IMG/VR virus record: IMGVR_UViG_3300044815_000079
Location: 1-22,501 of that record
Origin: a virus
Reading direction: 5' to 3' (one strand)
DNA: 22,501 nt
In this document: piece by piece, positions 2,746 to 22,453 of the stretch
Numbering within the stretch: position 1 is the stretch's first letter
Layout of the letters: every line of letters starts with the position of its first letter
Program-made: the position numbers and the translations under genes
Notes under the pieces: model-generated
The model's input: the letters and a program-made list of their open reading frames with translations, nothing else
The model's database searches: none
Told to the model about the DNA's origin: nothing

Positions 2746-3746
2746 GGCATGACATCCGGTGTGACGTTGTCGTCAATCACTGCGCGAAATGAATGGGCGT
2801 TGTCGTAGGCCACAACGGTGAACTGCCGGCTGCGATCAAGATATAGGAACTCGTAGTAGCCCGTGGTCAGGTTGCTCGTGGTCTCGGCAATGAATACACC
2901 GGTCAGGTCCTGGTAGAGCCTGACCTTGCTTGCGTAGGGTGCGTTTGGCGCCGGCAAGATGCCAAGGGTCTTTGTCGTGCCGCTGATGATTCCGTTGCCA
3001 CCGACGGGCTTCAACCCATTGCGGTTCAAGTACTTCGCCCAGCGGCTCTTTACTGAATAGTTTGGCGGCGCTTGATCAATCTTGCGTGCGACTTGATCGA
3101 GTAAGCCATGAAACGTCGTGACCACCGGGCCAACGCTCTCGACATTCGTCGGTGTGTCAGTGACGATGACGCGATGAAGGCGCAGTGTGCAGTTGCGAAA
3201 CAGCACAGCCAACTGCATGTTCGCTGTAAGGGCGTTCTTGAACGTCGAAATCAAGATACCGTCTCGATAAACAACGAAGCGTCGAAACGCACCTACGACA
3301 TAGGTATCGTAGGTGAATGTCGCTCGCTCTGATGGATGTAAACCAGTGCCTTCGACGGCCCAAGAAGCATCAAAGGTGGTCGCAGCCCAAGCCGTCGTCA
3401 ACGTGCGAAAAAATAGGAACGATGATGTGTCGCCTCCAACCCCATTACACGAGTTCAGCAGAACTGATCCGTTCAGACCGTTAGCAAGGCTCGGTACAAA
3501 AAAAGCACCGAGATAGGCTTGCCCTAAAACGGACACCAGTTCGAGATCAAACGTGACCGACAAAGACGCTTGTGCGGCCACACCGTCGATTGAATAGCCG
3601 CCATTACTAGTGTCACCCTTGATCAGATCAACTGCCGACTGCCCCGAGTTATATGTGGCAGTCGGTGTCGTTCCACCTTGGGTTCGAACAGTGCCGAAGC
3701 CTCCGGGGATGCTTGTCGCAAAGGTCTCGTCGACCAGTGTGGTCAT
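2742..3746 (-). CDS. Tail-fibre-like protein with possible lectin-type fold, 334 aa
   Basis: The start ATG at 3746 follows a GGAGG Shine-Dalgarno sequence that overlaps the stop codon of the preceding gene. The first about 200 residues read like a concanavalin/LamG-type jelly-roll: alternating beta strands such as ASLSVTFDLELVSV, VGAFRRFVVYRDGILIS and CTLRLHRVIVTDTP. A helical linker follows (TTFHGLLDQVARKIDQ, about 210-225). The C-terminal about 90 residues form a small beta domain (KVRLYQDLTGVFIAETTS, GYYEFLYLDRSRQFTVVAYD) resembling carboxypeptidase-regulatory-like modules found at the ends of phage tail proteins. The domain calls come from pattern reading, not a search. Carbohydrate or receptor binding is the likely role given the position, but is not shown. 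Base composition is lower in GC than in the flanking structural genes. Confidence 0.7.
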   Translation of the reverse strand: MTTLVDETFATSIPGGFGTVRTQGGTTPTATYNSGQSAVDLIKGDTSNGGYSIDGVAAQASLSVTFDLELVSVLGQAYLGAFFVPSLANGLNGSVLLNSCNGVGGDTSSFLFFRTLTTAWAATTFDASWAVEGTGLHPSERATFTYDTYVVGAFRRFVVYRDGILISTFKNALTANMQLAVLFRNCTLRLHRVIVTDTPTNVESVGPVVTTFHGLLDQVARKIDQAPPNYSVKSRWAKYLNRNGLKPVGGNGIISGTTKTLGILPAPNAPYASKVRLYQDLTGVFIAETTSNLTTGYYEFLYLDRSRQFTVVAYDNAHSFRAVIDDNVTPDVMP

Positions 3747-3749
3747 GAC

Positions 3750-5060
3750 TTACCTCCACGGTCCGGTGAGGTCCAGCGCCAGACGACAGCCGTTGTTGAC
3801 GCCGGAATCGTTGTAGACAATCGTCGATGGGAAAAGTTGTTGTGCCAAAAACGTCCGACCCGACAAATTGGTCACGTTGCTGATAAACGATTGATCCGCG
3901 AGGTTGGTGCCGACGTTGTTGTGAATGGCGTAGAGACCGGGAAACAACCCCCGCACATGACCACCGTTTTCAAAGCAATAAGATGGATGCAAAATTAGAC
4001 TAAAGTCAGGCCCGTTCGGCCAGGTAATTCCCGTGTTCGACCCCGTCTCGACGCCGGTCCCTGCATTGGTGGTTGTCGCGAGTGAAAACTTACCATGCGA
4101 TGTCGCGCCGCCTACACCGATGTAGCTCTTCATCAAAAGTTGGCCGTTGGAGATGAGGCCACCGTAATTTGAATTGCGCGGACCTACGTTGGCATTAAGG
4201 CCCCATTCATACAATGTGCCTGGCGCATTGGAAAGGTTGTAGGCCTCGTGTGCCCACAAAAATGCGCTGTATTGATCTCCGACTTTATAACTTTCCAGAT
4301 CGCCAAATGCATAGCAAATCGTTCCGCTATTGCCCGCTAGCTGTTGCACAAAGAAATAGAAGCATCGATCGTCGCCGACGATCGTCCACTTGGCAGCAGT
4401 CGCCCCCGCGTTAGATTGATTTGCAAAAGTTGCCGAAAACCCCACGCCGCTATACGACTGACGCCACACGTACCAACCCCAGTCTGGAAAGCTCGTCAGA
4501 TCGCTTCGGTAAGGCATGTAGTCAACACCGACGTAAGTGTCAACATCGGTCATCGCCACCCCAGCCGAAATCTTTGCGCAAACGATCTTCCCCGTCGTCC
4601 AACCAGCCGGCTGCGTGTTGTCCACCCGAAGATAAGGCTTCGGGCTGCTCGAATTCAAACTGCGATACACCCGCTTGTTGGTGGCCGTGTAGGCGATCTG
4701 CCAATCCAACGGCGCGGCTTTGATCGTCCCGGTGCTCGCGGTGGTTGCCGGTGAAGCTGGGGTGCCACTGACGGTGAACTGAAGGTTGTTCGAATCGGCA
4801 AAGGTCACAACGAAGTCGCCGTTGTATTCGCTTTGATTCCATGCAGCGCTGCGTACGACTTGGTTGACCTGGAATTGATGTCCGCCACTGATGTAGACGT
4901 TCGCAACAGAGCCCGTGCGAGTCAGCGTTGTGACGTTCTTCAGGTTGAAGCCCGTGTTCAAGCATGCATCGAGCACGGCAACCATGTCACCGAACGCATT
5001 TGCCATAGCCGGCGCGCCCTGCATCAAGCTATTGAACCAGCGAATTGTGGGAGCAGTCAT
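3750..5060 (-). CDS. Tail protein of unknown role, 436 aa
   Basis: A 436-residue protein starting at ATG 5060 with AGGA upstream. Its N-terminus (MTAPTIRWFNSLMQGAPAM followed by FGDMVAVLDACLNTGFN) and later segments such as WYVWRQSYSG and CFYFFVQQ are familiar to me from tail modules of proteobacterial siphophages and Mu-like phages, annotated there only as phage tail or hypothetical protein. Residues about 40-115 form a beta-rich unit with SGGHQFQVNQVV, probably a small immunoglobulin-like fold. The rest is aromatic- and Gly/Asn-rich, as in fibre or adhesin proteins. The only apparent untranslated gap in the group is the 19 bases before it. Hand counts of two stretches inside this gene give about 45-47% GC against about 63% in a tape-measure stretch, suggesting independent ancestry of this part of the tail. 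Confidence 0.7.
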   Translation of the reverse strand: MTAPTIRWFNSLMQGAPAMANAFGDMVAVLDACLNTGFNLKNVTTLTRTGSVANVYISGGHQFQVNQVVRSAAWNQSEYNGDFVVTFADSNNLQFTVSGTPASPATTASTGTIKAAPLDWQIAYTATNKRVYRSLNSSSPKPYLRVDNTQPAGWTTGKIVCAKISAGVAMTDVDTYVGVDYMPYRSDLTSFPDWGWYVWRQSYSGVGFSATFANQSNAGATAAKWTIVGDDRCFYFFVQQLAGNSGTICYAFGDLESYKVGDQYSAFLWAHEAYNLSNAPGTLYEWGLNANVGPRNSNYGGLISNGQLLMKSYIGVGGATSHGKFSLATTTNAGTGVETGSNTGITWPNGPDFSLILHPSYCFENGGHVRGLFPGLYAIHNNVGTNLADQSFISNVTNLSGRTFLAQQLFPSTIVYNDSGVNNGCRLALDLTGPWR

Positions 5061-5079: not shown

Positions 5080-8000
5080 TCAAGGGTGATCGACATCGCC
5101 ACGAACCAGCATCGTGAACGAGTCATCGGTTTCAGTCTCAGGGCCTTGCTTGATCGTGCGAACAACCCATATCGGCGCCAACGCGCCAACGGTGTTCAAC
5201 CGCAGGACATTGCCCGCTGCCCAGCCTGAGCCCCAGCCAAGCGCCAAGATCGTGAAGTAGGGATCGCCAGTCGCCGGATTGATCGGCGACTGATTGACAG
5301 CGGTGCTTCCGCTCGCAATGATCCCGACGTGCTCACCGACGATGTTGAATGCCGTGGTGCCTGTGAACACCAGTGCCCATCGCTCGGTCGATGCGCCTTT
5401 GTTGGTCACGACCACAGGCGCCAGCACATCGTTGTATGTCGCCGCTGCCGAGCTGCCAATCAGCGAATCGCTCCAAACGTTCGACCAGGTCTGTTGATCG
5501 AATAGGGTGCTCACGCGAGCATGCATGTCGCCAAACACCAAAGCACTGCTTACGTACGAGCCAACCGGGTAGTCATGCGTCACGGCGCGCGTGAAGCTCA
5601 GTTGACCGCTGATCTGCGCGTCCGAGACCAGCATCATGTCTTCGATGCGGTGCTCGACTTCAACCGGCTGGCTGTAGCCGGAGACCGAGGTGAATGTCAC
5701 CATGCCGGCTTCAAGATCGACGGTATAGCCCGTGTTGATCACGACCCCGTTCGCACCGATCACTCGAACTCGGCTCAGCCGCACCCGACCAACGTCGACC
5801 ACGTCGCCGTTCGCGACCGTCTGCGGGTCTTCGGTGATCGTGTTCCCGATGACAACGAAGCTGCCCGGCCGAAAAATTGGCACTCGGCCGTCGCTCGGCA
5901 GGCGCACAGGATCGATGCCAAGAATGTCGGCATCGAGCGGCAGGTAGACGTAGGCCGAAGCGTTGTAGCGCAAGACATCGGCGCGCGCACCTTCAACAAG
6001 CACGTACTGAACGCCTGTGATGTCTAGATCGGACATGTCGACAACGCCGGCCGCGCCGGCATTCGCCGCATCGACGCGACTGCCAAAGCGAATTTTGCAG
6101 ACGCCCGTCTCGTAGTTGAGGCGCCCGAAGACACCGCGACTACCTTTGTTGGACATCAACGGCCCCGTGGAGGCGGTGCCTGATTTGATGATCCCATCCG
6201 AGTCCGCAGTTGCGGAGAACGTCGTTCCGTCGCTCCAAGCTCCGACCACGCTGAAGCTGCCGTTACGCAGCGGTGAGACCGCAGTGCGGAAGGTCGCACC
6301 GTCAACCAACGTCAAGCTGGTGGATGAGGCCGCAACGCCTGAAGCATTCGTCACGGTGCTCGATACGCCCGCAGTCCACAAGGTCAAGGTCGCATAGCCC
6401 CAGCCATAGTCATAGGAGAGATCATTCAAGTAGAGGCCGTGCGACATCGTGCCGGCAGCATCGCCGACACCCGTGCTCGGATTGATGTTGCGTTGAATCT
6501 GGTTCAGGCCGTTGGTGTCGTAGCGATCGGACCCCAAACCGAAGTGCGCCCATCCGCGAGTAGCGAACAGAGTAGACAAAGCAAAGCCTTGCGAATAGGA
6601 CGAACCGTCGCTCGATGCGTAGCGAGCCTTGGCACCGCTGCCGATTGCCCCCGTCCACCAAGCCCATGCCGGAAGAATCAAGAGTGCGCCGGTGGCACTG
6701 ATGATCGTCAACGTCACAGTGCGTGTCTCGTTACCCACCAACACCACACGCGTCGGATCGGTCACAGGCGCGCCGAATGGGGTCGTGTCGTCCCACACAC
6801 TCTGTACCTCTTGAAAGCCGCCAACGGTCTTCTGAATTGCGCAGGCACCCGTGCCGTAGTTGATGGTCCCAACCGTCAGATTGCCGGCGAGTGAGGTCAG
6901 CTTCAAGTTGCCGGCGCCGTCGTCGAAGAAGCGCATCAGTGACGATGTCGAGATGTCGACACCGGGGAACTGACGAACGGGGCGATACGCGACAACTCCA
7001 AGTTCAACAGAGCCCGCGCGAATGGTGCCTGGCAGCGTGAACGTCCACGTCGTGCCGGCGTCGAAGAAGACACTCGCATCGATCACAGCGGTGTCCGAGT
7101 TCGTCAAAGTGACCGAGAACACGGTGCCCGCGGTCGGCAGCGCGTTCGGACTGATGCGGATCACACCCGATCCATAGATCACATCCCCCACGGCAGCGCT
7201 GCCTGTGAGCGAGCCGTTGAGATCGCCGGCTGTGCGCGCAGTGCCGTCATTCCATGCAATCGCCAAGGTTCCCGGCTTGATCGCTTGCCCCACCTCGATC
7301 TGCATGTAGAAGCGGCTGCTCGACAGCGTCTCGACAGGCACCGGTAACGCGATCAGCGAAGGGGCAGCAGCTTGCGGTGAGTACGCGCCGATCACCTCCG
7401 ATCCAACATCAGGCAAGGCGCCAAGCGTCAGGCTGAGCGTGCCTGTCGTGAAGTTGATGGTCCCCACACCGGCACTCGAATCGCCACCCCGCAGCGCGCC
7501 CGAGCCATCGTCCTGCAGCACATACCAACGCCCGCCCGCTCGATAGCTGACGTTCAAGCTGCCGCGAACGGGAACAGCATCGAGCGTGGCGACGTAGGTC
7601 AGACGCTGGCTCGCCTGTGTGACGGCGAAGCCGAATGATTCACTGACGATCGATGGTTGTGCGGCCGGCTTGAAGCTAACCACATGACTGCCGCCCGAGG
7701 TGCCGAAGACGCTCGTGCTCAAGCTCAACACCCCATTCGCATAGTCGACAAGACCGACCTGGGTGCCGTCCGACTGAAGCAAAAGAACGCCGCCGTTGTC
7801 GACGAGGGTGATCCCGCTTCGAACCACGGACAACGAACTCGGCGAGATGCCGCCACCGACGTACAGTTGCTGCGTCGTGCTGAAGACGAGGGTGAAGCTC
7901 ATCGTCAACAAGCCACCCGACTCGACCAACGCAGCCGATTGCTGATTCATCCGCGCGTCGGCGATCGGTGTCTCGATCTGCGCGCTTGGAACCAACTGGC

Positions 8001-8766
8001 TGAAGATGCCGGATGCCTGAACCGTGAAATCGCCCGTGTCGGCCGCGACGGTCAACGGCACGACGCCGTAGTAACGAGCCGCGTCGGCGACGACCGTCTC
8101 GCTGACGCGCGTCTTGCCAGAGAAGTTGATACTCGTGTCGTAGCGAAGCGCATCGAAGCCAGGGAAATCGGCACGCAGCGAGTCGCTGATGCTCAACGAA
8201 ATCTGACTGCGCGTGAAGACACCATTGCTGTCCTCGAAATCACGACTCGACACCGAGGCATCGGTCACACGAACGAACTGGATGAACTCGCCGGCCGTGC
8301 CTTCGAGTTTGCTCAAGACCAAGGTATCACCCACAACGGGAGGGGTGACGTTGGTCCGAGCAAGCAACGTCAAAGTCTGTTGCCCTTCGATGTGATTGCC
8401 GAACAAGTAGCCTGCGTAAGTCGGACCCTGCGCAAGGTAAGACTCGATGCGGGCCTTGGCGGCATCGCGTTCATCGAACGTGTCCCCGGTCGAGAAAAGG
8501 GTGACGTTGACGTTGGGATCATTCGGTGCATCCGAGACGATCACATTGACGCCGAAGTACCCATCGACGTTGTCGCTCTGAACTGAGCCAAAGACCTTGC
8601 GCAGGTTAACTCGGCCACCGGCGCGATCGAGTTCGGAGATGTCGTTGAAGATGGAGTTGCTGACACCGTCGTTGATGATCGTGCTGGTGGGCGCGCCACC
8701 GCCTTCCGGTACGTCATCCATCACCTGTGACGCAACCAGCTTGATGTCGCCTTGAAGAATTGTCAT
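5080..8766 (-). CDS. Giant beta-rich tail-tip/fibre protein, 1228 aa
   Basis: The second-largest protein of the window. Start ATG 8766 has GGGGA eight bases upstream, overlapping the end of the preceding gene. The N-terminal about 190 residues (MTILQGDIKLVASQVMDDVPEG, then NDISELDRAGGRVNLRKVF) match from memory a conserved domain in tail-tip proteins of proteobacterial siphophages that lack a lambda-type J. Residues about 320-895 are beta-rich and carry a recurring unit with the pattern D-DG-x-L ... VGTINY-x-TG-x-x-x-L at about 320-350, 415-450, 503-540, 612-645 and 843-895. The C-terminal about 200 residues continue as beta-rich sequence. No membrane segment, no collagen repeat and no catalytic motif was recognised. 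It probably forms the shaft or central tip of the tail; whether it contacts a receptor is unknown. Confidence 0.75.
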   Translation of the reverse strand: MTILQGDIKLVASQVMDDVPEGGGAPTSTIINDGVSNSIFNDISELDRAGGRVNLRKVFGSVQSDNVDGYFGVNVIVSDAPNDPNVNVTLFSTGDTFDERDAAKARIESYLAQGPTYAGYLFGNHIEGQQTLTLLARTNVTPPVVGDTLVLSKLEGTAGEFIQFVRVTDASVSSRDFEDSNGVFTRSQISLSISDSLRADFPGFDALRYDTSINFSGKTRVSETVVADAARYYGVVPLTVAADTGDFTVQASGIFSQLVPSAQIETPIADARMNQQSAALVESGGLLTMSFTLVFSTTQQLYVGGGISPSSLSVVRSGITLVDNGGVLLLQSDGTQVGLVDYANGVLSLSTSVFGTSGGSHVVSFKPAAQPSIVSESFGFAVTQASQRLTYVATLDAVPVRGSLNVSYRAGGRWYVLQDDGSGALRGGDSSAGVGTINFTTGTLSLTLGALPDVGSEVIGAYSPQAAAPSLIALPVPVETLSSSRFYMQIEVGQAIKPGTLAIAWNDGTARTAGDLNGSLTGSAAVGDVIYGSGVIRISPNALPTAGTVFSVTLTNSDTAVIDASVFFDAGTTWTFTLPGTIRAGSVELGVVAYRPVRQFPGVDISTSSLMRFFDDGAGNLKLTSLAGNLTVGTINYGTGACAIQKTVGGFQEVQSVWDDTTPFGAPVTDPTRVVLVGNETRTVTLTIISATGALLILPAWAWWTGAIGSGAKARYASSDGSSYSQGFALSTLFATRGWAHFGLGSDRYDTNGLNQIQRNINPSTGVGDAAGTMSHGLYLNDLSYDYGWGYATLTLWTAGVSSTVTNASGVAASSTSLTLVDGATFRTAVSPLRNGSFSVVGAWSDGTTFSATADSDGIIKSGTASTGPLMSNKGSRGVFGRLNYETGVCKIRFGSRVDAANAGAAGVVDMSDLDITGVQYVLVEGARADVLRYNASAYVYLPLDADILGIDPVRLPSDGRVPIFRPGSFVVIGNTITEDPQTVANGDVVDVGRVRLSRVRVIGANGVVINTGYTVDLEAGMVTFTSVSGYSQPVEVEHRIEDMMLVSDAQISGQLSFTRAVTHDYPVGSYVSSALVFGDMHARVSTLFDQQTWSNVWSDSLIGSSAAATYNDVLAPVVVTNKGASTERWALVFTGTTAFNIVGEHVGIIASGSTAVNQSPINPATGDPYFTILALGWGSGWAAGNVLRLNTVGALAPIWVVRTIKQGPETETDDSFTMLVRGDVDHP

Positions 8767-8768
8767 TG

Positions 8769-9167
8769 TTAAATCCCCGTGAATCGAAGCGTGACCAGAT
8801 ACCAGTCGGCGTCATCGGCATCGCTGTAGTGAACAACCGGAACGGCCTCGATCGCCGCGCCATCTTCAAATCGAAGAATCACCGGGTAATCAACGCCGCG
8901 CAGTCTAAGAGTCATCTCTGTTCCTGCCTCTGCGGCAAAATTTCGCAGCGCAAGCACCGTACTTCTCGACATCCATGCAGACCCTTCATCGATCGGCTGA
9001 AGGGTGAACGGCCGGCCAGCGAGAAGAAGCGAACTGCTGACGACGATCGCGCCGGTGATAGTGGGCTGCTTCGTTTGAGCAACAGGATTCCAACTGAACT
9101 CATCCGACCAGAGCAGATCGGGATGAAGCGTGATGACTGTTGAGCCGGCGGTGAGAGTGATGGTCAT
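8769..9167 (-). CDS. Tail protein following the tape measure, 132 aa
   Basis: I chose ATG at 9167, one base after the tape-measure TGA; the open frame upstream lies inside the tape-measure gene. The 132-residue protein is mostly beta strand, with WSDEFSWNPVAQTKQPT near residue 20, RGVDYPVILRFEDGA near 90 and ending DADWYLVTLRFTGI. The gene directly after the tape measure is usually a distal-tail or tail-tip adaptor in siphophages, and the alternation here fits a small ring-forming protein. That is inference from position; sequence alone does not place it in the Dit family. A near copy (17 of 19) of the intergenic motif seen elsewhere in this window falls inside this coding region at 8927-8945. 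Confidence 0.7.
   Translation of the reverse strand: MTITLTAGSTVITLHPDLLWSDEFSWNPVAQTKQPTITGAIVVSSSLLLAGRPFTLQPIDEGSAWMSRSTVLALRNFAAEAGTEMTLRLRGVDYPVILRFEDGAAIEAVPVVHYSDADDADWYLVTLRFTGI
8927..8948 (-). promoter_or_regulatory. Degenerate copy of the 19-nt late motif inside a coding region
   Basis: Bases 8927-8945 match the motif at 14324-14342 and 18495-18513 at 17 of 19 positions; the differences are at 8936 and 8945. Here the core is flanked by the inverted repeat CTGCG (8930-8934) and CGCAG (8944-8948). It lies within the 132-aa tail gene, about 160 bases upstream of the 1228-aa gene. It could drive or regulate the tail-tip genes, or be a chance match within codons for LRNFAAEAG. Confidence 0.3.
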
Positions 9168-13487: not shown

Positions 13488-14258
13488 TCAGGACGTGGGG
13501 TACAGGTCGACCGTGAACGGCGTCGTGCCGCCGACCGGGGTCTTCATGCGACCTGCGAGGGTCAGCGAGTTGAAGTCGTCGGCTAGGAAGTCGAACGCGG
13601 AGCTGGCCGCGACCGTCACTTCGAGCGCTTCGACGATGCACTTCGAGCCGTCGACGAAGTTGACACCGTCGAGCATCATCTTGGCGCGAATCTGCGGAGA
13701 GGTGCCGCCGCTGATCCGCGTCGTGCTGGCGATCGTCGCGTAGCCGTAGCTGACGTGCATCGTCGAGGCATCGACGATGCTGCCGGTGCTCAGCGGCTTG
13801 ATCCAGCCCAGTTGCGAGTTGACGACGTAGTCGGTGCCGAGCACGTAGGTCGTCGTGTCGCCCGCGTTCTTCACGACGACACTGGACACGACCAAGTGCG
13901 CCAGCTTGCTCCAACCGTCGAGGGTCGCGACGACCGATTCCGGGGAGCCCGATGTCACCGTACCCGAAGTCTGCGTCAGCGGCGCCGTGGTGCCCAGCAG
14001 CGCGATTGCCATCGCGTCTTTGTCGATGTTCCGCATCTCGGCGGTGAAGTCGAACGGCTTGGGCAGATTGACCGATTCCAGCAAGCCGCCGTAGTTCGCG
14101 CGGGACTTGGACACCAGGTCTTTGACATCGGTGTTCGGTTTGATCTCGAACTTGCCGGCTTCGAACGGACCCTTGTAGGCGTCGAACAAGCCGGTGGAGC
14201 TGTTGAACCGCGCGGTGTACAAATCACCTGCGCCAAGAAAGCCACGAGCAGCGCTCAT
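13488..14258 (-). CDS. Major tail tube protein, 256 aa
   Basis: This is the high-copy subunit of the tail tube, occupying the lambda V position between the gpU-like terminator protein and the tape measure. The start ATG 14258 has a strong GGAGG seven bases upstream. The sequence is predominantly beta. The N-terminal half (GAGDLYTARFNSSTG, FEIKPNTDVKDLVSKSR, FDFTAEMRNIDKDAMAIALLG) and the central part (TTYVLGTDYVVNSQLGWIKP) follow the pattern of major tail proteins with a decorating middle domain. The C-terminal half (SPQIRAKMMLDGVNFVDG through LTLAGRMKTP) completes the tube fold. It has its own 84-base leader with a shared 19-nt motif and a hairpin, and an intrinsic terminator behind it, consistent with separately boosted expression. 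Confidence 0.88.
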   Translation of the reverse strand: MSAARGFLGAGDLYTARFNSSTGLFDAYKGPFEAGKFEIKPNTDVKDLVSKSRANYGGLLESVNLPKPFDFTAEMRNIDKDAMAIALLGTTAPLTQTSGTVTSGSPESVVATLDGWSKLAHLVVSSVVVKNAGDTTTYVLGTDYVVNSQLGWIKPLSTGSIVDASTMHVSYGYATIASTTRISGGTSPQIRAKMMLDGVNFVDGSKCIVEALEVTVAASSAFDFLADDFNSLTLAGRMKTPVGGTTPFTVDLYPTS

Positions 14259-14295: not shown

Positions 14296-14323
14296 GGAAG
14301 TGTATGGGCGCTAAACGATGTGT

Positions 14324-14342
14324 CCTCTGCGGGAAAATTTCA
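14324..14342 (-). promoter_or_regulatory. 19-nt late motif, copy upstream of the tail tube gene
   Basis: On the minus strand this reads TGAAATTTTCCCGCAGAGG, identical over 19 bases to the copy at 18495-18513. It begins directly at the stop codon of the gpU-like gene and ends 65 bases before the tube start. No convincing sigma-70 -35/-10 pair is visible in the 84-base gap. A phage-type promoter or a binding site for a late regulator are the likeliest roles, both inferred from identity and placement. Confidence 0.5.
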
Positions 14343-14819
14343 TCACGGGTTCGCGAGGTCTTCGTTGTAGTCCACATCGATCTCGATGATCGCCATGACG
14401 ATCGCCACGCCGTCGGCGCGAGGGCCGATGTCTCGGCCGCGGTAGCTCACGTCTTTGACTGTGCCGCCAAGGTTGCGGCTCCCGATGCCGTTCGTTCGGA
14501 AGATCGATCGCTTGAGATCGCGGATGATCCGGTGCGCTACATCGTTAGGGTTGTCGGCATCGCACTTGGCATAGCCGATCAGCACGTAGCGTTGAACGAC
14601 TCGTTGATCAATCGTGACTGTCCGGCCAGCGGTCCCGTGCGGCGCGTCTTCACCTTCGATGAGCACCGAACATGGAATCATCTCATCGTCGATCTTGCGA
14701 CGACCCCGAAACACCGTCGTGCCGATGTCCGTCTCGGCACCAAGCGCCACGGTGATCCGCGCCATGCGCGATGCGATCTCTTGCGCAACAAGATCGGCCG
14801 ATTGAAGTAGGTTACTCAT
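14343..14819 (-). CDS. Tail terminator protein, gpU-like, 158 aa
   Basis: A 158-residue alpha/beta protein whose ATG overlaps the preceding stop codon as ATGA (14819-14816). It starts with a helix (LLQSADLVAQEIASRMARI) followed by a strand pattern including CSVLIEGEDAP and RYVLIGYAKCDADNPNDVAHRIIRDLKRSIF, then a final strand AIVMAIIEIDVDYNEDL. This order of helix, beta strands, helix and a last beta strand with an acidic end is that of tail terminators, which cap the tube and fix its final length before the head joins. Lambda gpU is somewhat shorter (131 aa). The position between the gpZ-like gene and the tube gene is the lambda position of U. The assignment rests on synteny and fold pattern. 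Confidence 0.7.
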   Translation of the reverse strand: MSNLLQSADLVAQEIASRMARITVALGAETDIGTTVFRGRRKIDDEMIPCSVLIEGEDAPHGTAGRTVTIDQRVVQRYVLIGYAKCDADNPNDVAHRIIRDLKRSIFRTNGIGSRNLGGTVKDVSYRGRDIGPRADGVAIVMAIIEIDVDYNEDLANP

Positions 14820-15436
14820 GCGAGGGCCTTTTGGATTCCGAGTTGAATGGCGTCGGTGGCCGTCAGTTCGAGGTCGTCGGCAATGTCCGTGGTGCTGACA
14901 TCGAGCGTCGCGCGAAACAACTGATAGACCGACGGCCCGTAGCGATTGGTCACGCGACCGTCGGCGCCGCGCGCGAAGACGCCAACGCCGCTTCCATTGC
15001 GCAAAGGCATCAGGAAGCCGTGCGCGATGCGCTTGGGCGCGGTACGGGAGACCTGCACCGTGATACCCGCTGCCTTCAGGCCTGGCGCAATGCCGCGAGA
15101 CGGATCGCCTTTGGCGCGGCCGGGGTGCAACACCGGCTTGAGAACGAGCCGGGGGTTGTATCGACTGAGTAGCGTGAGATCGCCCGAGGCTGTGATCGTT
15201 GCGCTGGGCACGTTGGTGGCATGCACGACCTTGAGCTTCCGGCCGATGTAGGGATCATCCAGATTGATCCCGGCGTTCATGCGCCTGCGCACCGTGTCGT
15301 AGGCGCGGTCAGTGACTTCGTTAACCGCGCGGATCACCTCGCGCTCGATCGCATCGCCGTAGATGACCTGATCGAGCTGAGCGGTGGTGCTATCGAGTTC
15401 GCGGGTGTCGAACGTGACCGCAAAGGTCTTGCCCAT
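14816..15436 (-). CDS. Tail completion protein, gpZ-like, 206 aa
   Basis: This resembles the minor tail protein Z family, which prepares the tail end for joining to the head. I chose ATG at 15436 (TGATG overlap with the previous stop); a GTG one codon earlier is less likely. Residues 30-65 are a basic helix (VIRAVNEVTDRAYDTVRRRMNAG), and near the C-terminus lies YGPSVYQLFR (166-175), the typical GPS-V motif of this family. The length of 206 residues is close to lambda gpZ (192). It is followed by the gpU-like gene with a 4-base overlap, as expected for the Z-U order in lambda-like phages. Confidence 0.75.
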   Translation of the reverse strand: MGKTFAVTFDTRELDSTTAQLDQVIYGDAIEREVIRAVNEVTDRAYDTVRRRMNAGINLDDPYIGRKLKVVHATNVPSATITASGDLTLLSRYNPRLVLKPVLHPGRAKGDPSRGIAPGLKAAGITVQVSRTAPKRIAHGFLMPLRNGSGVGVFARGADGRVTNRYGPSVYQLFRATLDVSTTDIADDLELTATDAIQLGIQKALA

Positions 15437-15723
15437 CACGCACTGCGCGGTAGCAGGACGAAGCGCTTGGTGGCACCGTTGGACTCGATCTGTTCGCCAA
15501 GCGTGTAGGTGCCGTCTGCGTGATCAAGCGCATCGCCGGGGCGCGGCAGGAACTCGACAAGGATCGTTCCGATGTCGCGCACGAAGGTCGCGTCTTCGTA
15601 CTGCCCGGTGAGTTGAACACCGTGCTCTACGTTGACTTTGCCGCACGCTACCCCACGTAGAAACGAGTCCTGACCAAGAATGTTCAGGACTCGTTTGGAG
15701 GCGCGGCTGAAAACAGCCAGCAT
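15436..15723 (-). CDS. Head-tail joining protein at the FII position, 95 aa
   Basis: A 95-residue protein directly after the major capsid gene and before the gpZ-like gene, the position of lambda FII. The N-terminal part is helical and basic (SRASKRVLNILG). The rest is beta-rich (VNVEHGVQLTGQYED, TILVEFLPRPGD, KRFVLLPRSA), like small head-completion/connector proteins. I call it on position and size; the sequence alone does not prove the family. The start ATG 15723 lacks a visible Shine-Dalgarno sequence and follows the capsid stop by six bases, suggesting translational coupling. Codons about 10-21 contain a perfect 13-bp inverted repeat that would form a strong hairpin in the mRNA and may limit expression of this and later genes. 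Confidence 0.6.
   Translation of the reverse strand: MLAVFSRASKRVLNILGQDSFLRGVACGKVNVEHGVQLTGQYEDATFVRDIGTILVEFLPRPGDALDHADGTYTLGEQIESNGATKRFVLLPRSA
15661..15696 (-). repeat. Perfect 13-bp hairpin just after the capsid gene
   Basis: AAACGAGTCCTGA (15661-15673) and TCAGGACTCGTTT (15684-15696) are exact inverted repeats around a 10-nt loop. The stem starts 33 bases beyond the major capsid stop codon and lies inside the coding region of the FII-position gene. On both strands the stem ends in TTT, so it looks like a weak bidirectional intrinsic terminator or an mRNA-protecting structure at the 3' end of the capsid message. Confidence 0.65.
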
Positions 15724-15729
15724 GGGGGA

Positions 15730-16722
15730 TCAGGTCAACGTGACCTTGACCACCGCGTTCGGACGCGCGTTGATCTGGATCGGGTTGGACTGCGCTTCGA
15801 GTTCGATGCCCTTGTCCATGCGCATCTTCTCCTGCTTGGCGTAGTACGGTAGGCCCTTGGTGTTGACCGTCTCGTTGTAGTCGGCCGGCGCGAACAACGT
15901 GCTGAACATCGCCGGCACACCTTCGGGGATCGCGTAGCCGCAGTCGGTTTCGATCAACGGCACGCCGTTCACGCTGCCGACGTATTCTTCCCAGGTGATG
16001 TCGCCGAAGCTGAAGGTGCGGTTGTCCGCACGATTCACCTCGCCTTGCAGGTAAATCTCGTACGCCTTCATCACTGCAGGGTGATTCGTCAGCGCGTCGA
16101 ACAGGCCGGGCGAACACATCACGCGAATGCGCTTGTACGGGATGCCCCCGAGCGCAGCTTCGACCTTGCGACGAAGCTGCGTGCAGAGCATGCGAACAAG
16201 CGTGGCGGTGTTGTCCAGCTCCATCGAATGCGTCTGCTGCGAGAAGCCGAAGGTGTCGAACATGTCGAGCAGCACCGTCGTGCCATCCGCATCGAGCACC
16301 TGGCCCTTGATCGCACCCATGCGCTGCCATTCCAGCGTCAGGTCGATGTTCAGCTTCATCATCCCGAGCTTGTCGTTCACGACGCCTTGTACGGTCTGCA
16401 CGTCGGTCTCGCTGCCGAAGGCGCGAACGTTCTGCACTTCGTCGGCCATCACCGCGCCGCTCTCCGGCAAGTGCACCGCGTTGATCGACACCAGCTTGCG
16501 CTTCGGACCGACCACCGGAGTGCCCGGCGAGCCGCGCGGCTTCGAATCGACCAGCTTGACGATCTGACCGACGCGCTCGATCGAGACGGAGGTGGTCGTG
16601 ATACCTCGCTCGGTGAAGTAGCCCAGTTCCCCGAGCCGCGTCGGCAACAGCGGCAGATCGTTGATCGCGAGCGTGAGTTGCGACAACGAGAATGCGTCGT
16701 TGTTGAAGATGTCGAGATGCAT
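15730..16722 (-). CDS. Major capsid protein, lambda gpE family, 330 aa
   Basis: This forms the icosahedral shell. I chose ATG at 16722 because GGAGG lies five bases upstream; the longer open frame extends back into the decoration gene. The protein has 330 residues, close to lambda gpE (341). Family-typical segments are MHLDIFNNDAFSLSQLTLAI at the N-terminus, ALGGIPYKRIRVMCSPGLFDAL near 190-211, FSFGDITWEEYVG (237-249) and APADYNETVNTKG (278-290), followed by YYAKQE. It follows the decoration gene by 43 bases, and a strong hairpin lies just beyond its stop codon. It is expected to be the most abundant virion protein together with the decoration protein. Confidence 0.93.
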   Translation of the reverse strand: MHLDIFNNDAFSLSQLTLAINDLPLLPTRLGELGYFTERGITTTSVSIERVGQIVKLVDSKPRGSPGTPVVGPKRKLVSINAVHLPESGAVMADEVQNVRAFGSETDVQTVQGVVNDKLGMMKLNIDLTLEWQRMGAIKGQVLDADGTTVLLDMFDTFGFSQQTHSMELDNTATLVRMLCTQLRRKVEAALGGIPYKRIRVMCSPGLFDALTNHPAVMKAYEIYLQGEVNRADNRTFSFGDITWEEYVGSVNGVPLIETDCGYAIPEGVPAMFSTLFAPADYNETVNTKGLPYYAKQEKMRMDKGIELEAQSNPIQINARPNAVVKVTLT

Positions 16723-16765
16723 GAAAACCTCCGAAGGAAATTCGACTTGTTCTTGGGCCTGAAGA

Positions 16766-17416
16766 TCAGGCTCGAACGATGATTCCGGCTGCGCCGAGAG
16801 CTGCCTTGGTGACGGCCTTTGCTGCAGCGTCGGCGCCATACCCGGTCAGCGCAGCGGCGATCACCTCGCAATCGCGAACGAAGCCGACCGCTTGGAAGTT
16901 GCCCGTCTGCGCCGGCAGATTGCCGTACAGGATCGCGTTGGCCGTGCCCGATCCATCGGCGGCGCCGGCAACGTAGGCCTTGTACTTTCCGGCGCCGGCC
17001 GACACGTCGATGTAGATCACGTCGTTGACGGCGAAGTCCGTCGCGCCATCGGCCAGGGTGAATGCGAGACCGCCCTGATTGAAGGCGGCAGCAACGTTGC
17101 CGTTGCCAACGAGTTCACCATCCGGGTCTTCCACCGAGAAGCCACCCGCATTCGACGCAGTCGAGAGGATGCGCAAGGTATAGCGGCCCGGCTGGGCGTT
17201 GGTCGGCGTGACCGTGCCCATCACGCCGTTGCCGGTGTTGCCGGCCTTCGCCACCGACGTGGCGGTCGTGCCGTCGTTCAGGCGACCGAGAACGGTGCCT
17301 GCGACCAGCGCAACGCCGGCCTGCACGACCGTGATCTCTTCGCGGCTGCGCATGCCGTGCGCTTCGGTGAGCAGGAACTCGCCCGTGTGCATGCCTTCGT
17401 TCAGCGTGACGCCCAT
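16766..17416 (-). CDS. Head decoration protein, lambda gpD family with extra domain, 216 aa
   Basis: Decoration proteins cement the expanded capsid at its three-fold axes. ATG 17416 is chosen for AGGAGA upstream; the reading frame upstream overlaps the protease gene. Residues about 8-45 give the family signature (GMHTGEFLLTEAHGMRSREEI followed by AGVALVAGTVLG). The C-terminal part (TGNFQAVGFVRDCEVIAAALTGYG and a final Ala-rich helix) also fits. Lambda gpD is 110 residues; here 216, because about 80 residues of Gly/Ala/Asn-rich beta sequence (GVMGTVTPTNAQPGRYTLRI to ATDFAVNDVIYIDVS) are inserted. Such insertions are known in related phages and probably form a capsid-surface loop domain. It is adjacent to the protease and capsid genes in the order protease, decoration, capsid, as in lambda. 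Confidence 0.88.
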   Translation of the reverse strand: MGVTLNEGMHTGEFLLTEAHGMRSREEITVVQAGVALVAGTVLGRLNDGTTATSVAKAGNTGNGVMGTVTPTNAQPGRYTLRILSTASNAGGFSVEDPDGELVGNGNVAAAFNQGGLAFTLADGATDFAVNDVIYIDVSAGAGKYKAYVAGAADGSGTANAILYGNLPAQTGNFQAVGFVRDCEVIAAALTGYGADAAAKAVTKAALGAAGIIVRA

Positions 17417-17438
17417 TTCAATCTCCTGTTTGAGTCGG

Positions 17439-18443
17439 TTACTTCTTGCCCGTGCGCGCCGCAGCGCGATTGGCATAGACATCGTTGACGTTCAGCTTCG
17501 GCAGACTCGCCGCTTCGGCTTCGGCCTTCAGCTTGGTGGTGGTGTCGACGTGCAGCTTCTCGTCGTCGCTGGCGATGACTTCCGCCAGCTCGGCGCGGAC
17601 CTGCGCGATCGACATGTGGTTCGTGATGTAGCGCCGCGCTTCATCGGGCTTCTTGACCAACGTGCACAACGCGCGCACGTCCTTCGCACGCGCGATGAGC
17701 TGGTTCGCCATTTCGAGCGAGGTGATCCGCGCGTCGGTGGCGAACGTTGCGCTGTACTCGGCGAGGCCGGCCTTCTCTACGGCGGCAACGATCACGTCGG
17801 TCGACGGAGCGCCTTGCTCTTCGAGCAGCTCCGGGTCGACGGTCGCGGCGAACAGTGCCTTGACGTTGGCCGGAAGACGGTCGACTTCGAACTTGGCCGT
17901 CGCCGTGATGGCATCGGTCATCGTGTCGGCGAACCCGAGCGCGACGCATTCGGCCGCGGTCAGGTAGCTTTCGGCCGCGAGCAGCGCTTCGACTTCTTCC
18001 TGCGTCTTGCCGGTGCGCTTGACGTAGGTCGCGGTCAGGCTCGCTCCGATCTTTTCGAGCACCGCCGCCATCTCGCGCATGTCTTCGGCGTTGCCGTAGA
18101 CCGCATTGATGGGGTTGTGCACGAACATGAACGTGTTCTCGGGCATCGAGATCGTGTCGCCCACCATCGCGATGTAGCTGGCGGCGCTGGCGGCGATGCC
18201 GAGCACCGTGACATTGATCGTCTTGCCCGACGCCTTCATGGCGTTGAACATCGCGAGAGCATCGAAAACGGAACCGCCCGGCGAGTTGATCGACAGGTTC
18301 ACCGACTCGGCGCTGATCGCATTGAAGCCAGCGATGAAGTCCTTGGCGGTGACGCCCCAGTAGCCGATCTCGTCGAAGATCGAGATTTCGGCGGGCTTGT
18401 TGTCTGCCCCTTCTTTGTTCTGGATCAAGTACCAGCTTTTCAT
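17439..18443 (-). CDS. ClpP-type head maturation protease with C-terminal extension, 334 aa
   Basis: This serine protease processes the prohead. Residues 1-200 are a ClpP fold (peptidase S14): SPGGS at 54-58 forms the oxyanion region, the nucleophile is Ser86 in GIAASAAS, His109 in FMFVHNP and Asp173 in GFAD complete the triad. All three are in the expected spacing. The last about 130 residues (from about 200) are helical and charged (DVIVAAVEKAGL, ITSLEMANQLIARAKDVRAL, SIAQVRAELAEVI) and probably act as an internal scaffold; no separate scaffold gene follows. The start ATG 18443 has AAAGG eight bases upstream, but that site lies in a 7-bp hairpin. The leader also contains the 19-nt motif shared with the tail tube gene. 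A portal gene, which normally precedes this protease, is absent here. Confidence 0.92.
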   Translation of the reverse strand: MKSWYLIQNKEGADNKPAEISIFDEIGYWGVTAKDFIAGFNAISAESVNLSINSPGGSVFDALAMFNAMKASGKTINVTVLGIAASAASYIAMVGDTISMPENTFMFVHNPINAVYGNAEDMREMAAVLEKIGASLTATYVKRTGKTQEEVEALLAAESYLTAAECVALGFADTMTDAITATAKFEVDRLPANVKALFAATVDPELLEEQGAPSTDVIVAAVEKAGLAEYSATFATDARITSLEMANQLIARAKDVRALCTLVKKPDEARRYITNHMSIAQVRAELAEVIASDDEKLHVDTTTKLKAEAEAASLPKLNVNDVYANRAAARTGKK

Positions 18444-18445
18444 CG

Positions 18446-18470
18446 TCGCGCCTTTTGGTTAACGGCGCGA
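18446..18470 (-). promoter_or_regulatory. Hairpin enclosing the ribosome binding site of the head protease
   Basis: TCGCGCC (18446-18452) and GGCGCGA (18464-18470) form a perfect 7-bp stem with an 11-nt loop, ending two bases before the ATG of the protease gene. On the mRNA the AAAAGG Shine-Dalgarno sequence spans the end of the loop and the start of the 3' arm. When folded, the stem would hinder ribosome access, so translation of the head module may be controlled here. Position and complementarity are seen; the regulatory role is inferred. Confidence 0.5.
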
Positions 18471-18493
18471 TTATTGATGTCGCAAATGCGAAA

Positions 18494-18523
18494 CCCTCTG
18501 CGGGAAAATTTCAGCGCAGAGGG
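18494..18523 (-). promoter_or_regulatory. 19-nt late motif within a 9-bp dyad upstream of the head module
   Basis: CCCTCTGCG (18494-18502) and CGCAGAGGG (18515-18523) are perfect inverted repeats around a 12-nt A/T-rich centre. The strand read by the operon contains TGAAATTTTCCCGCAGAGG (18513-18495), identical to the copy before the tail tube gene. It lies in the 116-base gap between the lysis cassette and the protease gene. As RNA it could form a hairpin followed by TTTCGC, a weak terminator for the lysis genes; as DNA it could be an operator or phage-specific promoter. The exact second copy without the dyad favours a DNA or promoter role for the 19-mer itself. Confidence 0.55.
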
Positions 18524-20948: not shown

Positions 20949-22427
20949 TCAGTAGAGCGTCCGGCCATCGCCGAGCAGGAAGTCGTGGCAGTCAAGGCTC
21001 TTGTTCAGGCACTGCGTAACCCAGGTCTGCATGACCTCCTGCTTCCAGCCGTTGAACCAGTCGCCATGACTGCAATAGCCGGCCGGGCCGTCGTACTTGT
21101 CGCACGACAATCGCCATCCCGCAGTTGTCTGGCCTTCTGCCAGCGCATAGTGGATGTTGTAGGTGATGGCTGGGAGCGCGACAGGATGGCTGGCGGGGCA
21201 CCCGTTGCTCGCATAGGCCATGTGCGACTTGTGGTCCGGCGAATCGAGGTTCACGCCGTCCCAGCACTGTGGGAACCCGACGGTCATCACCAATTGGTGC
21301 CCGGGACCGGTGCCGCAGTCGGGAATAGTCGAGGGCCAGCCGATCTCTCCACCATCGCAAGTGAATCGCGCTGGACCCCAGGGCGTCTCGGCGGTTGCCA
21401 TCGGGTCTCCGGCAATCACCCGCAGTCCAGCAGGAAAAGGCTGAACATCGGCATTCTGAACACCCAGGTAACCGGTCTTGTAGTACGCCTGATTGTCTGT
21501 GGGTGTGATCGGAAAGCCCTTGCTATCCAGCATCGCCGGGACCCAATAACCGGTGCAGTTCGCCGTGCCACCAGGGGCAGACGACGCTGTGCAACCAACG
21601 ATGTTCCCAGCGGTTGTGAACGCCGTGATGTTCGTGTTGCCGAAGAAGACGTGCAGGTGCGACTTGCCGGGCTGACCGGGATAGACGATCGGGTCGTCGT
21701 ACGCCATCGACACCGACTTCATCGAGAACCTTGCTGCGCCCACATCCGTCGCAGCGGGCACATAAGGGCCACCGTTGTACGGGATAGGTTGAATCCGTTC
21801 GCCTTCAGCGACGACCAACGGCGACATCAACGGGCCGTTGACCGGCAAACCTCCGTGAGCAGGCATGTCCGGCATCGTTGGTGGGTCTTGTGGCACCGTT
21901 GGTGCTGGGCTGGGGTCTGGGTCGACGAGGACCGCGGCCGGGCCGCTCTTGAGCTGGCAGACCTTCACGACACCGGGGGCCGGATCGGTGCCGAAGAACT
22001 CGTTCGAGCACGTGGCCGACTTGCGCACGGTGAACTGAATCCAACGCGTGTCGATGCCGTAGCGCACAAGCTGCGGCTCCTTCAGATAGATCGCATCGCC
22101 TTCGTTCACCAGTGGTAGCCACTCCGGCACGGGCGGCGGGTCGGGAACCATCGTCGTGACGATCACGATGTCTTGACGGCAGAGATAGTTGATCGGCACC
22201 GGCTTCTTGGGTGGCTTGACGGCGTTGATCGTGACTGTCGATCGCTTCGCAGCTTCGTCTTGGCAAAGCTGTTGTGTATCGAAGGTGGGCGTGAGCGGCT
22301 TGCCTTTGCCGGCTCCGCTGTAGAGCTGCCAAGGACCGGGCGTCACGACGGAATTGATCGCGGCATGCGTCGGATCGAGCAGAGCAAACAATGCGAGCAC
22401 CACAACGATGGTCTTGAAGCGAATCAT
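20949..22427 (-). CDS. Secreted DUF1996-domain protein, 492 aa
   Basis: I chose ATG at 22427, with AAAGGA six bases upstream; an in-frame TTG at 22442 would place that site inside the gene. Residues 1-22 are a signal peptide (MIRFKTIVVVLALFALLDPTHA). About 30-160 form an N-terminal domain ending in VRYGIDTRWI and CSNEFFGTDPAPGVVKVC (140-157), a motif I associate with secreted carbohydrate-active proteins. A proline-rich linker (about 165-200) follows. About 234-470 match DUF1996: DDPIVYPGQPGKSHLHVFFGN, GYWVPAML, FPQCWDGVNLDSPDHKSHMAY and CPASHPVALPAITYNIHY. The protein has 14 cysteines, consistent with periplasmic or extracellular disulfides. The domain has no established function to my knowledge. 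In a phage it may act on or bind the cell surface, or be a lysogenic-conversion gene. Confidence 0.85.
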   Translation of the reverse strand: MIRFKTIVVVLALFALLDPTHAAINSVVTPGPWQLYSGAGKGKPLTPTFDTQQLCQDEAAKRSTVTINAVKPPKKPVPINYLCRQDIVIVTTMVPDPPPVPEWLPLVNEGDAIYLKEPQLVRYGIDTRWIQFTVRKSATCSNEFFGTDPAPGVVKVCQLKSGPAAVLVDPDPSPAPTVPQDPPTMPDMPAHGGLPVNGPLMSPLVVAEGERIQPIPYNGGPYVPAATDVGAARFSMKSVSMAYDDPIVYPGQPGKSHLHVFFGNTNITAFTTAGNIVGCTASSAPGGTANCTGYWVPAMLDSKGFPITPTDNQAYYKTGYLGVQNADVQPFPAGLRVIAGDPMATAETPWGPARFTCDGGEIGWPSTIPDCGTGPGHQLVMTVGFPQCWDGVNLDSPDHKSHMAYASNGCPASHPVALPAITYNIHYALAEGQTTAGWRLSCDKYDGPAGYCSHGDWFNGWKQEVMQTWVTQCLNKSLDCHDFLLGDGRTLY

Positions 22428-22453
22428 GGTCAATCCTTTCAACTACACAATGC

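Follow-up and report, generated by a model that had tools for sequence, protein, structure and literature searches.

A 19-nt sequence that recurs in a 22,501-nt stretch of viral DNA (IMG/VR record IMGVR_UViG_3300044815_000079, positions 1 to 22,501; hereafter the window) is very probably the activator half of a set of late promoters, at which a phage-encoded activator resembling Mor and C of phage Mu would act with host RNA polymerase carrying sigma-70. In the mechanism that we propose, a Mor/C-family activator would bind a 16-bp site, CGAAAT-N4-CCGCAG, and host RNA polymerase with sigma-70 would then engage a −10-like hexamer that begins 37 or 38 bases from the start of the site, the bound activator standing in for the −35 element as Mor does at the Mu promoter Pm. 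The fragment would contain three such promoters: one before the head protease gene, one before the tail tube gene and one inside a phrog_4408 gene, which would boost the distal tail genes. Activator binding, activation, the start sites and late timing, like the placement of this phage's activator gene outside the fragment, are what we infer from sequence. The original prediction had left a late regulator site and a promoter for a phage-encoded RNA polymerase as alternatives; the former is strongly supported by the position of the sites, their matching within genomes, the −10 spacing, their confinement to the late strand and the occurrence of a Mor/C activator in relatives, while the latter fares poorly, as described below.

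Sites, hexamers and gene order in the window

The two exact copies of the 19-mer lie on the minus strand at 18513-18495 and 14342-14324, as originally located, within leaders whose lengths of 116 and 84 bases we likewise confirm. A third copy with two mismatches, missed at first reading, is found at 8945-8927 within the gene at 8769-9167, and all three are on the minus strand, as are the genes (Table 1). A scan of the window allowing up to three mismatches returns these 3 copies, compared with 0.03 expected from shuffles. The 19-mer is also the longest exact repeat of the window; in codon and block shuffles, the longest direct repeat reached 18 in 2 of 60 cases and 19 in none of 60. The first base of the 16-bp core is T in two of this phage's copies, while it is C in the consensus.

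Table 1. Candidate promoter elements and neighbouring genes in the window
Feature	Position	Strand	Remarks
Activator site 1 (candidate), TGAAAT-TTTC-CCGCAG, 16-bp core of the 19-mer	18498..18513	-	upstream of head maturation protease gene; orthologous sites in relatives
-10-like hexamer AATAAT, putative promoter 1	18470..18475	-	38 bases from site start
Head maturation (Clp-type) protease, first gene of head module	17439..18443	-	phrog_133, 3.8e-70
Activator site 2 (candidate), core identical to site 1	14327..14342	-	upstream of tail tube gene
-10-like hexamer TACACT, putative promoter 2	14299..14304	-	offset 38
Major tail (tube) protein with Ig-like domain	13488..14258	-	phrog_807, 8.5e-42
Activator site 3 (candidate), CGAAAT-TTTG-CCGCAG	8930..8945	-	in coding gene, codons CGA AAT TTT GCC GCA GAG
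-10-like hexamer TAGACT, putative promoter 3	8902..8907	-	offset 38
phrog_4408 gene (tail-region protein), holds putative promoter 3	8769..9167	-	1e-33
Large tail-region gene directly downstream of putative promoter 3	5080..8766	-	phrog_6128

Read along the minus strand, the lysis genes are followed by site 1, the head protease, decoration, major head protein, neck and tail terminator genes, and then site 2; from there the order is tail tube, tape measure, the phrog_4408 gene with site 3, the large tail gene and further tail genes. Elsewhere in the window, a 497-aa product encoded at 20949-22442 has a Pfam match, DUF1996 (2e-42), but none among the PHROG families; relatives have tail fibre or unknown genes at this position.

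The absence of a sigma-70 promoter, as originally proposed, holds for a consensus scan of the window sites, but a −10-like hexamer lies at a fixed spacing from all three. When leaders are aligned on the site, 36 of the 38 have, beginning at offset 37 or 38 from its first base, a hexamer that carries A in second and T in final place; with the same pattern, no other offset is represented by more than 2 of 38. These −10 boxes are weak. The combination of a recognisable −10 box with no consensus sigma-70 promoter is that of Mor/C-type promoters. The element as a whole has two conserved blocks and, beyond an unconstrained stretch, the −10-like hexamer. If the last T of the hexamer is taken as −7, the site would cover about −50 to −35, with its centre near −42.5. 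With the start site placed in this way from the hexamer, an element of about 16 bp would be positioned to replace the −35 contact, again as in Mor/C-type promoters.

Among the closest known arrangements is that of Mu Pm, where Mor binds a 16-bp element that is centred at −43.5 and replaces the −35 element (PMC4390567). The likeness extends to the recognisable −10 and, in the relatives described below, to the activator family PF08765. The Mor site, however, pairs 5-bp inverted repeats across a 6-bp spacer, while here the 6-bp blocks CGAAAT and CCGCAG are non-inverted and separated by 4 bp; the column consensus is symmetric at positions 1/16 only (the outermost C/G) and so lacks the dyad of Mor/C-type promoters. 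For this reason, we class the site as working like the Mu promoters rather than as an identical copy of them. Mor also drives a single middle promoter, whereas here several promoters would lie along the late structural region. In this respect, the arrangement resembles the Mu late promoters lys, I, P and mom, where one activator, C, serves several late promoters per genome, as we propose here, from sites upstream of or overlapping the −35 region (PMC4461284). The site placement here is similar, although the site sequence differs from that of C. The phages also differ in kind, being HK97-like siphophages of Burkholderiales and relatives rather than transposing phages such as Mu.

Conservation and co-variation of the sites in relatives

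Using the tail tube and protease proteins in searches confirmed by tblastn, we collected about 55 loci from viral contigs, phages of Curvibacter (PCA1) and Acidovorax (ACF1, ACPWH), and bacterial contigs of Burkholderiales, Rhodocyclaceae and Vreelandella. A search with the capsid protein found no relatives, and the single match to an exact 18-mer in viral_contigs was discarded, as it lies in an unrelated place (L004) and is by our estimate about what chance would give. The relatives' proteins are about 33-55% identical, such that unconstrained non-coding sequence should not align. Nonetheless, CGAAAT-N4-CCGCAG or a lineage-specific spelling of it occupies the same place in both leaders of nearly every relative with this head-tail module (about 20 phages), and the conservation that had been proposed as a check is observed, as a variant of the 19-mer, in the orthologous protease and tail tube leaders. 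The motif is absent from relatives that share the tail part only (L035, L036, L038, L039, L057 and L061).

The two leaders of a given genome resemble each other more than they resemble those of other genomes. The best 18-mer shared between protease and tail leaders matches at a mean of 15.6 of 18 positions within genomes, 12.7 between genomes, a value raised by close relatives among the 27 genomes, and 12.0 in shuffled leaders; none of 20,000 permutations reached the within-genome value. Examples of a sequence found twice in one genome are CGAAATTGTGCCGCAG (L034), CGAAATTGTCCGGTCG (L016), CGAAGCGCTGCCGTAA (L007) and CGAAATAACACCGCAG (L043), while L008 and L021 are exceptions in which the leaders show no clear pair. 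Identity in the half-sites is 96-97% within and 75-84% between genomes, and in the central four bases 70% and 30%, respectively; past position 20, the spacer shows no clear within-genome effect. Such co-variation of copies is the pattern expected if one trans-acting protein reads all sites of a genome, to which homogenisation between copies possibly adds.

Matches are also concentrated on the strand of the late genes. Over a set of 15 loci, each about 20 kb long, the consensus is matched 48 times, compared with 2 in shuffles, and nearly always on the gene strand. Across full records, allowing one mismatch in the 12 fixed bases, the matches of each motif-bearing phage fall on one strand, the late one, with several phages having 5-6 matches each; a reversed control pattern gives 4 matches in all. 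In ACF1, all six matches (31690, 39385, 44627, 48944, 49703 and 54855) are in the late region and none is in the first 29 kb. PCA1 has sites at 4727, 8629 and 13624 and additional ones near 3251 and 3616, upstream of small genes that precede its protease gene. A scan of viral_contigs with the right spacing finds at least 119 stretches, about 20 of them with multiple sites among the matches listed, compared with 86 stretches, 2 with multiple sites, for a wrong-spacing control; single matches are thus largely due to chance, and the signal lies in the multi-site contigs.

The copy within the phrog_4408 gene follows the same lineage-specific spelling. Where phages bear the motif, their phrog_4408 orthologues retain this copy, usually spelt by the codons CGA AAT TGG GCC GCA, with 13 of 18 arginines at this place encoded by CGA. 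In the L037/L040 lineage, where the leaders read CGCAAT, the coding copy reads CGC AAT, a synonymous change; in PCA1, where the leaders read CCGTTG, it reads GCC GTT G; and in a Hydrogenophaga prophage with CCGCTA in its leaders, it reads GCC GCT A. This tracking exceeds that in permutations (18 of 50,000), and the −10 hexamer offset is retained at the coding copy of most orthologues. Taken together, the tracking and the offset make a promoter within the gene likely. The orthologues of motif-less relatives have other codons at this position, as do those of four motif-bearing phages (L043, L007, L016 and L011), which would thus lack the third promoter.

A candidate activator in relatives

The window is a 22.5-kb fragment without an early region and contains no activator gene, so that this phage's own activator would not be in view. 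In the relative PCA1, a gene annotated as a late transcriptional activator, with the product UZZ64568.1, matches PF08765 at 38.3 bits (curated cut-off 24.9) and phrog_836 at 9e-23, and gp12 of ACF1 matches phrog_836 at 8e-15. Further phrog_836 relatives occur in eight IMG/VR records (L008, L016, L022, L026, L028, L040, L042 and L043) and in the host genomes of L056 and L060, with Mor/C-family matches of 1e-39 in Hydrogenophaga and 6e-46 in Vreelandella, for a total of 10 relatives' records and two host genomes. Eight of nine activator members match PF08765 at E<0.1, several of them above the cut-off. Mor and C of Mu both match phrog_532 best and phrog_836 second, while phrog_836 rather than phrog_532 is the top match of the relatives' activators, which makes them a sister branch; C and the relatives' proteins thus fall in the same two late-activator families, although in direct alignment the relatives' activators match Mor weakly and C hardly at all. 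A PDB search with the activator profile returned weak helix-turn-helix matches only. Separately, L021 (record G008) has a Mor-family frame (PF08765, 6e-15), also a phrog_836 relative, interrupted by one TAG, possibly a decayed or different activator, in a genome where the leader motif pair was not found. L021 and L008, each with a Mor/C-like match but without a clear pair of leader sites, count against the proposed activator.

It is unlikely, though the strongest of the alternatives, that these are late promoters at which host RNA polymerase works with a different regulator, for example an activator unrelated to Mor and C or a sigma factor, either alternative or phage-encoded. In favour of this, the two blocks do not form a dyad, as noted above, and L011 (52 kb) has the motif with no Mor/C gene detected, in a record that may be incomplete; motif distances and activator distances are also not significantly correlated (Mantel test over 9 genomes, r = 0.2, p = 0.24). 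On the other hand, Mor/C genes accompany the motif in 10 records and no phrog_836 match is found in the four motif-less controls L035, L036, L038 and L039 (29-46 kb), none of 12 records has a sigma-70 region-4 match at the curated cut-off, and the spacing fits the layout of a Mor-type promoter.

Much less probable are promoters for a phage-encoded single-subunit RNA polymerase of the T7 type, as half of the original interpretation would have it. Near-identical sites before high-copy structural genes resemble T7-type promoters, and the lack of a sigma-70 promoter in a consensus scan would agree with this. However, a search for PF00940, in which the T7 control scores 1e-109, finds no match in any of 12 relatives, among them PCA1 (near-complete) and ACF1 (complete), whose gene lists contain no RNA polymerase (the phage of the window is known from the fragment alone). 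A two-block site set apart from its −10-like hexamer by unconstrained sequence is also unlike T7-type promoters. The proposed look for an encoded regulator, which we carried out on relatives, turned up a late activator in 10 records and a single-subunit polymerase in none of 12.

If a Mor/C-like activator acts with sigma-70 polymerase at these sites, a previously unexplained repeat becomes a readable code by which a group of siphophages of Burkholderiales and relatives controls its late genes, and one for which a candidate activator can be named; late transcription units could be mapped in metagenomic fragments by sequence alone. More tentatively, a member of the Mor/C superfamily may read an asymmetric two-block site and have co-diverged, throughout a family of phages, with a late regulon of 3-6 promoters, one of them embedded in a gene whose protein sequence and codons are bent to the lineage's spelling of the site. 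Lineage variation would then amount to a natural experiment in which a regulator and all of its sites change together, one of them constrained inside a gene. The second half-site is altered where the recognition helix carries VRR (PCA1 and Hydrogenophaga), while activators with ERR mostly go with CCGCAG, a pattern noticed post hoc from two VRR cases and with L016 as an exception. A specificity switch between CCGCAG and CCGTTG/CCGCTA is possible and, if true, would make the recognition code testable. The freely available papers examined on PCA1 and Mor-like phages describe neither the motif nor promoters of this kind in these phages.

Leader hairpins and identity between copies

The small hairpins originally noted after each copy do exist, but in relatives they are not generally stronger than in shuffles (mean z of −0.81 and −0.47). 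At 18525-18491, where the lysis genes give way to the head module, copy 1 supplies the 3' arm of a 12-bp hairpin (AGGCCCTCTGCG...CGCAGAGGGTTT, z about −3.3); copy 2 has no such role. This hairpin might double as a weak terminator, but no T-run is present and relatives do not show it. A second, short inverted repeat of the GCGCAG...CTGCGC type at 18469-18444, between the −10 hexamer and the protease start codon, has similar counterparts in L034, L052 and L013 and would straddle the inferred start site.

That the repeat itself is an RNA element, such as a terminator, hairpin or attenuator acting in the transcript leaders, is highly improbable. The fold at copy 1 (z of −3.3 to −4.4) would favour it, but segments around copies 2 and 3 fold no better than shuffles, the left arm is absent at the relatives' sites, there is no T-run downstream, stable folding is not a general property of the leaders, and the fixed offset of the −10 hexamer is left unexplained; we dropped the terminator or hairpin reading because copy 1 alone folds. 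Equally improbable is that the copies are recombination linkers or a recent duplication, in which case recombination would maintain the identity of short repeats on either side of the head module. Within-genome identity does reach the variable centre and near flanks and, in a few genomes, 22-28 identical bases between leaders. Even so, the half-sites and −10 offset persist where the two copies have different centres, as in L022; the copy in coding sequence takes on the lineage's spelling; and further copies precede other late genes. Homogenisation may nonetheless operate in addition to promoter function. In L043, L007 and L034, the identical stretch shared by the protease and tail leaders is longer than the site, which suggests copy-to-copy homogenisation of late promoters.
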